A stretch of 64,000 nucleotides of DNA from Phycisphaerae bacterium (GTDB lineage Bacteria > Planctomycetota > Phycisphaerae > UBA1845 > Fen-1342), in NCBI GenBank assembly GCA_022072445.1, contig JAJVHV010000003.1, forward strand, positions 11,204 through 75,203. The letters are read 5' to 3'. Under the pieces are notes generated by a model, which was not told the origin of the DNA, searched no databases, and saw only the letters and a list, made by a program, of their open reading frames with translations. Each line of letters starts with the position of its first letter. Position 1 is the stretch's first letter. Of the stretch, positions 43,773 through 49,452 are shown piece after piece. Both the position numbers and the translations under genes were made by a program.

Positions 43773-44342
43773 GTGAGGCGGGCCGAAACACGAAACGACC
43801 GGAAATTGCGTCGCAACGACCAGGAACTGATCCGAGCCTGTCTCGACAATGACGCCGGCGCTTGGGACGAGCTGATCGAGCGCTACGGGCGGCTGGTCTA
43901 CTCCATCGCCCTGAAGGTGGGTCTCAGCGGCTCCGACGCCGACGATGTCTTTCAGGTGGTGTTCGGCATCGTCCTGCGGCGGCTGTCGACGCTGCGCGAG
44001 CATGATCGCTTTGCGGCCTGGCTGATTCGCCTGACGTACCGCGAGTCGTTCGGCTTTCGTCGCCGGAACCGGGCGATGTCGGAGCTGTCGGTCGAGCCGG
44101 CGGCGGGGGACATGACGGATGAGGAAGTCGCGGGCTGGGAACAGCGGGCGATTGTGCGACAGGCATTGGCTGAAATCGATGAGCGCTGCCGAAAACTGCT
44201 CGAAGCGCTCTTCTATTGCGCGCAAGAGCCTGCGTATGAAGAGATTGCGCAGCAGTTGTCCATGCCGGTCGGCAGCATTGGTCCGACGCGGGCGCGCTGT
44301 TTCAAAAAGCTCGAGTCAGTCCTGAAGCGGCTGGGTATCTGA
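43773..44342 (+). CDS. ECF-type sigma factor (CHAT-cluster)
   Basis: Protein of 189 aa from a GTG start. Region 2 spans about 18-90 (LIRACLDNDAGAWDELIERY, DADDVFQVVFGIVL, RFAAWLIRLTYRESF) and region 4 about 135-188 (AYEEIAQQLSMPVGSI). It would direct RNA polymerase to promoters controlled by the protein encoded next. Three genes follow in the same direction: a putative anti-sigma at 44460, TPR-CHAT at 45128 and a subtilase at 48022. The 117-base gap to the next gene may hold a separate promoter. No zinc-type anti-sigma is adjacent. Confidence 0.87.
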   Translation: MRRAETRNDRKLRRNDQELIRACLDNDAGAWDELIERYGRLVYSIALKVGLSGSDADDVFQVVFGIVLRRLSTLREHDRFAAWLIRLTYRESFGFRRRNRAMSELSVEPAAGDMTDEEVAGWEQRAIVRQALAEIDERCRKLLEALFYCAQEPAYEEIAQQLSMPVGSIGPTRARCFKKLESVLKRLGI

Positions 44343-44459
44343 TTATGAGACCTGACGACGCTTCGGACGAGTCAGCCGCTGCAAAAACCGCCGTGCTGAC
44401 CCGCCAGGCGGTATTTTCGCCCGCGGTGCCCGCTCATCTGTAGCGAAGGAGTGACCCGC

Positions 44460-45086
44460 ATGTTTGCTCGACCGACATTCGAAGAACTCGTCGCGTACGC
44501 CGCCGGTAAGACCACACCGCAGGACGCCGCGCGGATTGAGCAGCAGTTCGCGAAGCACGCCGCCGATGCGCAGACGGTGAAGTGTCTGCGTGCGGTGCTG
44601 GCCGCGGGTCGTGCCGGTGCGTTGGCCGATCCGCCCGAGGCGACGCTCGCGGCCGCCCGGGCTCTGTATGCGGAGCGGCGCGTGGCAAAGGCGAGTCCGT
44701 CGGTGTGGGCCGAGTTGCTCGAGACGGCTCGGCGGATGATTGCCGAGCTGGTGTTCGACAGCCGGCCGCAGGCGGCGCTGGCGGGGATACGCGGCGCGGG
44801 CGGGGCCTACCAGTTGGCGTACCGCTGCGAGCTGGCGGAGATCGACGTCGAAATCGAGAAGGCCGCGGCGGGCGCGAGCTGGCGTCTGATGGGGCAAATC
44901 AGCCCGACGGGCAGCGCCCAGCCGCGCTGCGTCATGCTTGTGGAGCGCGGCGGCAGCATTCCGCTGACGAGCGTCGATCCGGACGAGCACGGCGTGTTCA
45001 GCCTGGAGGCGGCGCAGGGCGCGTTCGACCTGCTGGTGATTCTGGACAATTCGGTGCTCGTGGTTCCCGGCATCGACATGCAGTGA
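44460..45086 (+). CDS. Putative zinc-less anti-sigma / substrate protein beside CHAT protease
   Basis: Protein of 208 aa. The ATG sits 10 bases after GAAGGA; a GTG nine bases earlier has poor spacing. The N-terminus (FEELVAYAAGKTTPQDAARI...KHAADAQTVKCL) resembles an anti-sigma helical start, but the HxxxCxxC zinc ligands are missing. No membrane segment is visible. The C-terminal half (WRLMGQISPTG, VMLVERGG, DEHGVFSLEAAQGAFDLLV) reads as a small beta-sandwich of the carboxypeptidase-regulatory type. Position between an ECF sigma factor and a CHAT protease suggests it is a regulator or cleavage target; this is inference. Confidence 0.6.
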   Translation: MFARPTFEELVAYAAGKTTPQDAARIEQQFAKHAADAQTVKCLRAVLAAGRAGALADPPEATLAAARALYAERRVAKASPSVWAELLETARRMIAELVFDSRPQAALAGIRGAGGAYQLAYRCELAEIDVEIEKAAAGASWRLMGQISPTGSAQPRCVMLVERGGSIPLTSVDPDEHGVFSLEAAQGAFDLLVILDNSVLVVPGIDMQ

Positions 45087-45127: not shown

Positions 45128-48025
45128 ATGGGCGCTGCCGCGGGCCGGCCGCCACGAAGCGCGGCACGCGCGCCCTACAACGCCATGACGGATGCGCAGC
45201 GCCAACCGGAAACGATGATGGCGGCGCTGCTCGATCTGCCGATCGAGCAGTGCGCGGGGTATGTGCGCGCCCAGGGCGATTGCGACGCGTTTCTTATCTC
45301 ATTGGCTGAGGAATCGGAGAGGCTGGCGGTGGCGGAAGTGTCACGGGGACTGGAGGCCAGCGCGCGGGTGCTGGCGCTGGCCGACGCGCTGGGCGGGCAG
45401 CGCTGCCAGGCTCGGGCGCATCGCGCCCGCGCCCAGACCCTCGCGTACGCCGGCCGATTCGACGATGCGCTGCCGATCTACCGCCGCGCGGATGAGTTGG
45501 CCCGTCGCGCCGGCGATGAAGTTGAGTCGGCGTATGCGAAGATGTCGTCGCTGCACGCGTTGGCCAGCCTGGGCAACTATGACGAGGCGATCGCGGCGGG
45601 CGAGGAGGCGCGGCGCGCGTTTAATCAGGCCGGCGAGAGCCTTGCCGCGGCCCGCGCCGACGTGAATCTCGGCGCGACGCATCAGATGCGCGGCGATCCG
45701 GCCGCGGCGCTGGTTCACCTTGACCGCGCTCGACCGCACTTTTCCGCGGACCCCGTCACGCTCGCCAAGCTCGACAGCAATCGCGGCCACGCCTTGGTGA
45801 ATCTGGACGACTTTCCGGCGGCGGAAGCGGCGTTCGAGTCGGCCTTGCGGACGTTCGTCGAGGCCGGTCTGACGTGGGCCGCGGCGATTGTCGAGGGGAA
45901 TCTTGGCGAGCTGGCGGCGCGGCAGAGCCGGCTGCAGCGCGCCTTCACCCATTACGAAAGCGCCCGCCGGCTGATCGGCGGCGACTCGGCTCCGCTGGAT
46001 TTGGCGCGGATGCGCGCCGAGCAGGCTGACGCATTCGCCACGCTGGGGCTGCTTTCCGACGCGCTGGCCGACTATCAGCGGGCGATACCGACGCTGGACG
46101 AGCATGGGTTGGCGTTTGAGAGCACACGTGCCAGCGCGGGTCTCGGGCGCGTGCTGTTGCGGCTCGGCCGACTGGCCGAGGCGGCGGCCCCGCTTCAGGC
46201 CGCGGCTGACGGTTTTGAGCGTCTGGGGCACGCCGTGCAGCGCGCCCGATTGAACCTTGACCGTGCCGAGCTGCTTGCCGCGGGCGGCCAGCGCGCCGCC
46301 GCCGAGACGCTGGTGCACGAGGCACTTCCCTTGTTGGCGGAGCGGCCGTCGGAACTGGCGGTCGCGCATCAGCGGTTGGCGCGGTATGCGCTGGCCGACG
46401 AGCGGCTTTCGGAGGCTGACGAGCACGCGTCGCGGGCGGTGGGCGACGCGCTGACGCTGGGTCTGGCGCCGCTGCTGGCCGACGCGCTGCACACACGTGG
46501 CGTTGTGCGGCGGGGGCAGCGGCGTGCGGCGGAAGCGCTGGGAGATCTGCGCGCGGCGGTCGAGCAGGTCGAGCGAATTCGCGGCACGCTTCACGCGGAC
46601 CACTTTCGCGCCGCGTTTCAGGCCAATCGTCTGGGCATGTACGAAGACCTGGTGGCCGCCGCCCTGGAGCGCGCCGACGCCGACGGCGTGGCCGAGGCGT
46701 TCCGCACGGTTGAGCGCGCCAAGTCACGCTCGCTGCTGGACCTGGTGGCGCGCGACGTGGACGACACCGCCGGCGTCGAGCCCGGCAGCCCCGATTCGGA
46801 GCTGGCCGCCGAGCTCGCCCGGCTGCGCGCCCGCGTCAACCAGCTCTACAGCCGGCTGGCCGACGATACGCACGAGCGGCGCGACGGCGAGCGGCTCCGC
46901 GCATGGCGCGCGGAGATCGAGCACGCCGAGCGGGCGGCGCGCGAACTCGAAGGGCGGCTCGCCAGCGGGCGTGGCATCATGGAACTGTTCGCCTCGCCGG
47001 CCGAGCTCGACAGCGTGCGTGCCGCCGTCCCGCCGCACGCCGCCCTGGTCGAGTATTACGTCGCGGGTGACGAACTGCTGGCATTCGTGCTTCGGCGCGG
47101 CGGCGTGACGGTCCGGCGGAAGCTCGCGGCGGCGAACGAACTGGCGGACGCCTGCGCCCGCGTGCAGTTTCAGGTCCGCCGGGCGCTGCGGCCCGGAGCG
47201 TTCGACGGCGGGCGCGGCGCGCGGCTCGAAGCGGACGCCCGCCGCGAGTGCGCCGCGCTGCACATGCGTTTGCTTGAGCCGCTGCTGTCGGAGCTGCGGG
47301 GCATCGACGAGCTGATCGTCGTTCCGCACGGCCCGTTGCACGCGCTGCCTTTCGCGGCGCTGAGCGACGAGCGCGGCTACGTTGTTCAACGCTGGCAGGT
47401 GCGCAGTAGCCCCAGCGCCAGCGTGCTGACGAGCCAGCGGGAGCGCGCGGCGCGGCCGACGGGTGGTTCGCTGGTGGTTGGTATTCCTGACGCGCACGCC
47501 CCCCTGATCGAGCACGAAGCCCGGCGTGTAAGGGAAATTCTTAGTGCCGATTTGCTGATCGGCTCCGAGGCGACGGCGGCCGCCGTCCGAGCGCGGGCGG
47601 TGGCTGCGGAAATGGTCCATTTTGCCTGCCACGGCCACTTTTCCGCGGACCAGCCGCTGGCCAGCGGGCTGCGGCTGGCCGACCGCTGGCTGACGGTCGG
47701 CGAGACCTTCGGCCTGCGTCTGGCGGCTCGATTGGTCACGCTGAGCGGTTGCGAGACCGGGCGGGGTATAATCAACACCGGTGATGAGTTCGTGGGCCTG
47801 GCGCGCGGCTTTCTCGCCGCCGGCGCCGCTTCGCTGGTCGTCAGCCTTTGGTCGGTGAATGACGCCAGCACCACCGAGTTCATGGGCTATTTTTATCAGG
47901 CGCTGTGTTCCGCGGGCGCGAGCGAGTCCGTTGCGACCGCGTTGCGCGGCGCACAATTGGCGTTGATGTCGGAGCGGGCGCACCCTGCGTTCTGGGCGCC
48001 CTTTGTGCTGATAGGTGAGGCATGA
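45128..48025 (+). CDS. TPR-CHAT protein (caspase-like peptidase)
   Basis: Protein of 965 aa (start at the ATG with GAGAAACG upstream; an ATG at 45185 is an alternative). Residues of about 60-560 are TPR-like repeats with Ala/Leu periodicity. The C-terminal CHAT domain (about 610-965) contains VHFACHGHFS with His835 before Gly and TLSGCETGRG with Cys875, the two catalytic residues expected in CHAT proteases. GDEFVGLARGFLAAGA and SLVVSLWSVND are typical flanking motifs. CHAT proteins are clan CD peptidases and include the Craspase partner. The stop overlaps the subtilase start (ATGA). A repeat-gated protease acting on a partner is inferred. Confidence 0.9.
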   Translation: MGAAAGRPPRSAARAPYNAMTDAQRQPETMMAALLDLPIEQCAGYVRAQGDCDAFLISLAEESERLAVAEVSRGLEASARVLALADALGGQRCQARAHRARAQTLAYAGRFDDALPIYRRADELARRAGDEVESAYAKMSSLHALASLGNYDEAIAAGEEARRAFNQAGESLAAARADVNLGATHQMRGDPAAALVHLDRARPHFSADPVTLAKLDSNRGHALVNLDDFPAAEAAFESALRTFVEAGLTWAAAIVEGNLGELAARQSRLQRAFTHYESARRLIGGDSAPLDLARMRAEQADAFATLGLLSDALADYQRAIPTLDEHGLAFESTRASAGLGRVLLRLGRLAEAAAPLQAAADGFERLGHAVQRARLNLDRAELLAAGGQRAAAETLVHEALPLLAERPSELAVAHQRLARYALADERLSEADEHASRAVGDALTLGLAPLLADALHTRGVVRRGQRRAAEALGDLRAAVEQVERIRGTLHADHFRAAFQANRLGMYEDLVAAALERADADGVAEAFRTVERAKSRSLLDLVARDVDDTAGVEPGSPDSELAAELARLRARVNQLYSRLADDTHERRDGERLRAWRAEIEHAERAARELEGRLASGRGIMELFASPAELDSVRAAVPPHAALVEYYVAGDELLAFVLRRGGVTVRRKLAAANELADACARVQFQVRRALRPGAFDGGRGARLEADARRECAALHMRLLEPLLSELRGIDELIVVPHGPLHALPFAALSDERGYVVQRWQVRSSPSASVLTSQRERAARPTGGSLVVGIPDAHAPLIEHEARRVREILSADLLIGSEATAAAVRARAVAAEMVHFACHGHFSADQPLASGLRLADRWLTVGETFGLRLAARLVTLSGCETGRGIINTGDEFVGLARGFLAAGAASLVVSLWSVNDASTTEFMGYFYQALCSAGASESVATALRGAQLALMSERAHPAFWAPFVLIGEA

Positions 48026-49452
48026 ATACACAAGTGGTGCGGTGCGGGCTTGGAATGGTGCTGGCCGGGCTGGTGTTGCTGCCGACGGCGCTGGCGGACA
48101 GCAACCCGGTCGATGATCAGGTGGTCGTTCGGCTCGTACCTGGCGCGGACTTGGGGGCGTTTCTGGCGCGCTATCCGCAGGTCGTCGAGGTTCGGGCCGC
48201 CATCGCCTCGCGCGATACGTACCTGCTGATTCTCCAGCATGATGCCGGCGAACTCGAATTCGTCGACATGCTCAACGCGGGCGGCGATCCCGACGCGCTC
48301 TGGGCCGAGGAGAACTACGACACCGAAACACCCGAAGGCACCGGCCGCAACTTCTTTCTGAACACCACGCCCAATCCAACCGTCTATCAGAATCAGTCGG
48401 CCTGGGGTCAGATCAACATGGGAGGCGCGCACACCCGAACCACCGGCGCCGGCATCATCGTCGCGGTGCTCGACACGGGCGTCGACGCCACGCACGTCGC
48501 GCTGAGCGGGCGCGTGTTGGCATACGGCTGGAACTTCATCGATGACAACGCGGACACGGACGACGCGGCGGACTTCATCGACAGCGACGCGGACGGCACC
48601 GTCGATGAGATGTACGGGCACGGCACGCACGTGGCGGGGATCGTCGCCGCCGTGGCCCCGATGTCGCAGATTCTGCCGGTCAAAGTGCTGGACTCGGACG
48701 GCCGCAGCGACAACTTCCGCATCGCGCTGGCGATGGAGTACGCGCTGGACGCAGGCGCGACAGTGATCAACATGAGCCTGGGCTCGACGTACAAGTCCAG
48801 CGCGATCGAAGACGCCGCCGATCGTGCCTACTACCTGGGGGTGCCGGTCGTGGGCGCCGCGGGGAATCTGAACCGCGAGCGGCCCGAGGAATACCCCGCA
48901 TTCTTGTCACACGCGCTGAGCGTGGCGGCGGTCGACGCCAACGACGTGAAGTCCGACTTCAGCAACTACAACAAGGACATGGTGCTGTCGGCGCCGGGCG
49001 AGGGCATCTACAGCACCATTCCGGGTGACCTCTACGCGCAGTGGGACGGCACGAGCATGTCGGCTCCGATGGCAGCCGGCGCCGCCGCCCTGCTCATCGC
49101 CCAACATCCCGAGTGGCCGCCGACCGAGGAGCGGGACGACTTCGTGGCCATTGCCCTCTACAACGCGGGCGTGGACATCAACGCCACGAACCCTGGATAT
49201 CAGGACATGCTGGGACATCGCCTGGACATCGCGGCGGCCGTGGGCGGGCCGTGCACGGTGGGCTGCAAGGGCGACCTGAACTGCGACGGGTTCGTCGACG
49301 GCTTCGACATCGTGCCGTTCGTGGTGGCGCTCTCGAATCCGGCTGACTACGCCGACAAGTACCCGGGCTGCGACATCACCTCGGCCGACTGCAACATCGA
49401 CGGTTCGGTGAACGGTTACGACATCGACTGGTTCATCGAGACGTTGCAGTAA
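48022..49452 (+). CDS. Secreted subtilisin-like (S8) protease with dockerin-like motif
   Basis: Protein of 476 aa. A signal peptide (to about Ala25) and a propeptide-like region (about 26-110) precede the S8 catalytic domain: Asp151 in VLDTGVDATH, His200 in YGHGTHVAG, Asn282 in GAAGN and Ser345 in GTSMSAPMAAG. All catalytic residues are present. The C-terminus has the dockerin-like pair NCDGFVDGFDIVPFVVAL and NIDGSVNGYDIDWFIETL. The gene overlaps TPR-CHAT by four bases, so an intracellular CHAT protein and an exported protease are probably made together. The subtilase may be an effector whose expression the sigma factor controls. Confidence 0.92.
   Translation: MNTQVVRCGLGMVLAGLVLLPTALADSNPVDDQVVVRLVPGADLGAFLARYPQVVEVRAAIASRDTYLLILQHDAGELEFVDMLNAGGDPDALWAEENYDTETPEGTGRNFFLNTTPNPTVYQNQSAWGQINMGGAHTRTTGAGIIVAVLDTGVDATHVALSGRVLAYGWNFIDDNADTDDAADFIDSDADGTVDEMYGHGTHVAGIVAAVAPMSQILPVKVLDSDGRSDNFRIALAMEYALDAGATVINMSLGSTYKSSAIEDAADRAYYLGVPVVGAAGNLNRERPEEYPAFLSHALSVAAVDANDVKSDFSNYNKDMVLSAPGEGIYSTIPGDLYAQWDGTSMSAPMAAGAAALLIAQHPEWPPTEERDDFVAIALYNAGVDINATNPGYQDMLGHRLDIAAAVGGPCTVGCKGDLNCDGFVDGFDIVPFVVALSNPADYADKYPGCDITSADCNIDGSVNGYDIDWFIETLQ

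Follow-up and report, generated by a model that had tools for sequence, protein, structure and literature searches.

A putative anti-sigma factor without zinc ligands, encoded between an ECF sigma factor and a TPR-CHAT protease

Related systems and the cassette

In the CalpL/CalpT/CalpS module of type III CRISPR systems a SAVED-Lon protease releases the sigma factor that an anti-sigma protein holds, and the anti-sigma factor ChrR carries a C-terminal sensing domain. PMC11417357 is devoted to CalpL. In the type III-E system the Csx29 protease cleaves Csx30, an inhibitor of CASP-sigma (PMC10028731). Among ECF sigma factors, the ECF54 group is described as having no anti-sigma factor, with an example from Geodermatophilus (PMC8999054), and the passages of that review dealing with the group place it beside carboxypeptidase, subtilase and CHAT domains (Huang 2015 and Casas-Pastor 2021, as cited in PMC8999054).

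The locus described here lies in a window of 64,000 nucleotides from a Phycisphaerae bacterium, the window being the whole stretch of DNA that was analysed. The locus contains four genes, which encode in order an ECF sigma factor (43773), a 208-amino-acid protein that is proposed to be an anti-sigma factor (AS), a TPR-CHAT protease (45185) and a secreted S8 subtilase (48022). The proposed release of sigma by a protease recalls CalpL/CalpT/CalpS, the protease here being of the CHAT and not the SAVED-Lon type. AS resembles ChrR in being soluble, with an N-terminal helical domain and a C-terminal beta domain; unlike ChrR and class I (ASD) proteins, the window AS has no zinc ligands, its beta-sandwich is CarboxypepD_reg-like where ChrR has a cupin, and CHAT adjoins it. 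As with Csx29, Csx30 and CASP-sigma (PMC10028731), a TPR-CHAT protease is encoded together with an ECF sigma factor and an inhibitor of sigma, here a proposed one, but no CRISPR effector is seen among the cassette proteins, AS is not Csx30 and an S8 subtilase is usually added.

The AS gene occupies 44460-45086 of the forward strand, as had been predicted originally, and is a real open reading frame: its ATG start at 44460 is preceded by a ribosome-binding site, GAAGGAG (44445-44451, forward strand, read directly), and same-cassette homologues of about 20–42% identity are found in many genomes. The other three genes are on the same strand. The sigma factor (43773-44342, 189 amino acids) matches Sigma70_r2 (1.4e-11, Pfam) and TIGR02937 (4e-20), has the sigma-E fold (4lup, Z 13.9; 1or7, Z 13.2) and carries in region 4 the motif GSIGPTRARC, which is conserved across cassettes. 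No promoter motif shared 5' of the sigma genes rises above shuffled sequences. The TPR-CHAT caspase-like protease (45185-48025, 946 amino acids; PF12770, 1.8e-62) has, as judged from its alignment, the catalytic histidine and cysteine expected of such an enzyme, His816 and Cys856, which are invariant in all 99 homologues that cover both sites; searched by sequence against the PDB, it matches only TPR proteins and no CHAT structure. The S8 subtilase (48022-49452; PF00082, 7e-46) has a signal-peptide-like N-terminus, intact triad motifs (DTGVD, HGTHVAG and GTSMSAP) and a dockerin-like C-terminus (Dockerin_1, 1.1e-3, sub-threshold).

Structure and lineage of AS

AS matches no Pfam family and only one NCBIfam anti-sigma entry, weakly (E 0.016). 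No plasmid match was found, and a scan of genome contigs with the window AS as a single query returned none. The AlphaFold model, built with 28 homologues, has a mean pLDDT of 88 and divides into two parts. Helices at residues 7-14, 20-30, 34-52 and 60-76 form a predicted four-helix anti-sigma domain whose zinc ligands appear to have been lost (residues 1-77, 44460-44690). After a poorly conserved linker with pLDDT 57-68 (residues 71-90, 44670-44729), which may be accessible to a protease, a C-terminal beta-sandwich follows (residues 91-208, 44730-45083), with strands spanning 91-207 and pLDDT mostly above 90. Within the sandwich is a conserved loop, FDSRPQAALAGIR (residues 99-111, 44754-44792), where pLDDT is 71 at residues 101-110; its Arg111 is conserved in 99% of the 98 homologues aligned, which span several phyla. 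The sandwich resembles common beta-sandwiches, and sub-threshold matches to Pfam CarboxypepD_reg occur in homologues, the window AS itself having none.

The original prediction of an anti-sigma-like N-terminus followed by a small beta-sandwich agrees with this model, in which no unrelated enzyme fold is found. When the family profile is compared with PDB sequences, 14 weak matches result, of which six are anti-sigma domains: RslA (3hug), DdvA (8rlz), RskA (4nqw), ChrR (2q1z and 2z2s) and RseA (1or7). Individually these are weak (E 0.06-0.36), but all six fall inside profile positions 1-83. The top VIA-align match of the model is again ChrR (2z2s), with a Z of 8.9 over 72 residues in model residues 1-77; unrelated folds, too, can score a Z of about 8, and the rmsd of 11.4 means that the helices agree locally and not as a single rigid body. 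The helical anti-sigma domain fold of zinc-containing anti-sigma (ZAS) proteins is hence found at the AS N-terminus, weakly in any one match and consistently over the six PDB sequences. Foldseek against the PDB gives nothing significant, its top match, a beta-glucuronidase (E 0.005), being taken as a common sandwich.

The zinc-binding HxxxCxxC motif is missing from the window AS, as originally noted, and the register where it would stand reads IEQQFAKHAADAQTVK. Homologues do carry it. Hx3-4CxxC is present in 20 of 98 aligned homologues with the cysteines in one register, namely in all four from Acidobacteriota, nine of 23 from Chloroflexota, one of nine from Actinomycetota, the Eisenbacteria locus and five planctomycetes. 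Two homologues, L118 from Chloroflexota (HLGGCAAC) and L139, combine the motif with the FDSR loop, and zinc-type homologues such as L118 match zf-HC2 weakly at the same place (E 1e-3 to 2e-2). Because these homologues align in register, the window AS is assigned on sequence to a lineage that includes zinc-type anti-sigma proteins; it has no ligands itself, yet is not unrelated to zinc anti-sigma factors. Loss of the ligands in the group of the window AS would be the simplest reading of this alignment-based comparison.

YfbK/vWF-A proteins, and others besides, start with the N-terminal module but have no further part of AS. Among six of them that were inspected, five adjoin sigma genes, three reach zf-HC2 at E 0.002 or below (Pfam; best 3e-6) and one also matches RseA_N (3.5e-4). 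The YfbK-like vWF-A proteins with this module are L074:4225-6759, which lies in the window's own genome, L075:5038-7098, L076:5107-7905 and L077:4391-6580; all but that of L076 are encoded next to an ECF sigma gene.

Contact between AS and the sigma factor was approached in two ways. An AlphaFold model of the two proteins tethered (43773-45083, the in-frame TGA codons being read through) has good domains but, at a pTM of 0.37 and with no interface scores, gives no confident contact; fold searches with it match mainly sigma factors. Paired mutual information from 99 AS/sigma pairs (Neff 64) does not single out the anti-sigma domain and gives no clear signal.

Conservation of the gene set

Amongst 39 full-length AS homologues from related planctomycete genomes, the window not counted, a CHAT-family gene lies directly 3' in every case and the sigma gene directly 5' in 37. 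In the two exceptions the sigma gene is 2.7 kb away (L026) or is represented by a weak, distant match only (L020). An S8 gene is nearby in 37 of the 39 loci, though in some it precedes sigma or lies on the opposite strand. The CHAT gene of L065 has only its TPR part in frame, and in L106 the contig stops within it.

Since the sigma motif is conserved, it was chosen as bait for a cross-phylum scan in which the AS gene plays no part, and GS[IV]GPTRxRC was searched over 84,980 species genomes. The best 80 loci, which partly overlap the planctomycete set, come from Chloroflexota, Planctomycetota, Acidobacteriota, Actinomycetota, Armatimonadota, Pseudomonadota and Eisenbacteria, according to record titles, which can be wrong for MAGs. 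AS is found beside sigma in 68 of these 80, a CHAT gene in 71 and an S8 gene in 63; in six of the nine loci lacking CHAT the contig ends no more than 1.7 kb from sigma. The four-gene set is thus shared by seven or more bacterial phyla. Conserved gene order, the homologues and the structure prediction together support the association of AS with the sigma factor and the TPR-CHAT protease that had been suggested from position. The Eisenbacteria locus (L189:7893-13756) has two facing sigma/anti-sigma-like pairs around a single CHAT gene.

The same four-part context, together with a locus from Geodermatophilaceae (L170) encoding sigma, CHAT and S8, makes it likely that the cassette is the ECF54 context, so far as gene neighbours and the ECF54 passages of the review (PMC8999054) allow it to be judged, and that the gene called a carboxypeptidase there is AS. 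As in that account, a sigma gene is accompanied by carboxypeptidase-type, subtilase and CHAT genes, the carboxypeptidase element here being the sub-threshold CarboxypepD_reg match seen in homologues only. In contrast to the group as described in those passages, an anti-sigma domain is present here in the carboxypeptidase-regulatory-like protein, several actinobacteria excepted. A sigma group described there as lacking an anti-sigma factor would therefore appear to have one, hidden by the loss of zinc ligands and by the carboxypeptidase-like domain name.

Proposed release of the sigma factor

AS is probably an anti-sigma factor, and would be a soluble, cytoplasmic one of class I type that has lost its zinc ligands. 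From anti-sigma homology and the near-universal adjacency of the two genes, its N-terminal helical domain would bind the neighbouring ECF sigma factor and hold it inactive. The beta-sandwich and its conserved loop may dock on the TPR-CHAT protease. A signal at the TPR region would then cause CHAT to cut AS in the linker or the Arg111 loop and free the sigma factor, by analogy with Csx29–Csx30–CASP-sigma and with RseA. The freed sigma would transcribe its regulon, which perhaps includes the secreted subtilase. The entire relay, including cleavage of AS by CHAT, is given a probability of roughly 0.55.

Release through membrane proteolysis of the RseA/RsiW type is unlikely. As originally predicted, no transmembrane-like helix stands out in the window AS or in its AlphaFold model, and a 19-residue hydropathy window exceeds 1.7 in only one of 68 cross-phylum homologues. 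Since 67 of the 68 have no such segment, a cytosolic protease becomes a natural candidate. The sole homologue with a transmembrane-like segment (L145:8886-10218, KD 2.61) also has the zinc motif, and its open reading frame runs off the contig.

Some related clan CD proteases cleave after arginine. Taken with the conservation of Arg111, this makes the Arg111 loop and the linker speculative candidate cut sites, and the FDSRPQAALAGIR loop (residues 99-111) might serve CHAT for either recognition or cleavage. If CHAT does cleave AS, the cassette would represent a general cytosolic proteolytic switch that controls transcription in seven or more phyla, and the CRISPR-linked Csx29 system could plausibly have arisen from it. 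The fullest version of this idea, in which a widespread, CRISPR-independent TPR-CHAT protease senses a signal and cuts AS at the near-invariant arginine to free the ECF sigma factor, and the type III-E Csx29–Csx30–sigma set is a recruited relative, is put forward tentatively, as less likely than not.

The best conserved AS residues in the 98-homologue alignment sit mostly in the beta-sandwich, which would also suit an anti-sigma factor that is released by ligand or TPR-domain binding without being cut, CHAT acting on some other target. ChrR, the top structural match, has a C-terminal sensing domain, and the S8 gene is linked in most loci. However, in almost every locus it is the AS gene that separates sigma from CHAT, the catalytic pair is kept in every aligned CHAT, and S8, with its signal-peptide-like N-terminus, would act outside the cytosol and is hence not an obvious CHAT substrate; release without cleavage is accordingly considered rather unlikely.

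In several actinobacterial versions little of the helical domain is left, while the beta-sandwich is kept, with CHAT and sigma still linked. In L177:8569-9060, L182:3121-3582 and L188:8518-9006 the wider-profile match lies mainly C-terminal to the helical domain (E 2e-14 to 4e-17). These proteins may bind sigma differently or not at all, and the loss may explain the statement that the group has no anti-sigma factor. They also lend something to the view that AS serves chiefly as an adaptor or inhibitor of CHAT with an accessory helical domain, the sigma factor itself being proteolysed. The same part of the review records a proposal that ECF54 is under proteolytic control with no anti-sigma factor involved (PMC8999054). 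An anti-sigma domain, with or without the zinc motif, is nevertheless retained between sigma and CHAT in several phyla, which leaves the adaptor role improbable.

It is very improbable that AS belongs to the Csx30 family proper, as part of a CRISPR-linked system: the functional layout of TPR-CHAT protease, sigma factor and third protein is shared, and the window CHAT matches the Csx29 model over its CHAT domain, but at 40 bits against a cut-off of 300, whilst AS, with 208 residues against about 560, gives no match to the NCBIfam Csx30 model (NF041234) up to E 1 and an hhalign probability of 0.1 against the Csx30 of L117. The four cassette proteins, the set scanned for this, show no match to Cas proteins. 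The original suggestion of a comparison with Csx30 thus finds no match at the sequence level by NCBIfam or hhalign.

As a separate observation, Csx30 and CASP-sigma are encoded in L117 as is usual, whereas another type III-E locus, L116:8685-19899 (G308:C31), with Csx29 at 904 bits and a Cas7-11 split over two open reading frames in the assembly, has at the Csx30 position a 514-amino-acid protein in which a zinc anti-sigma motif is recognised (zf-HC2, 7.6e-8; RsrA, 1.5e-5), and also encodes a weakly sigma-like protein of 410 amino acids. A 19% hhalign match of AS to the 514-residue protein (L116:13251-14795) was set aside as a Csx30 link, as it falls on the zinc anti-sigma stretch and the protein is not Csx30. 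The same stretch is weakly matched (E 0.21) by the N-terminal region of the 991-residue CHAT domain-containing protein 8rot_B in the PDB, a hint that CHAT may there be fused to an anti-sigma domain.
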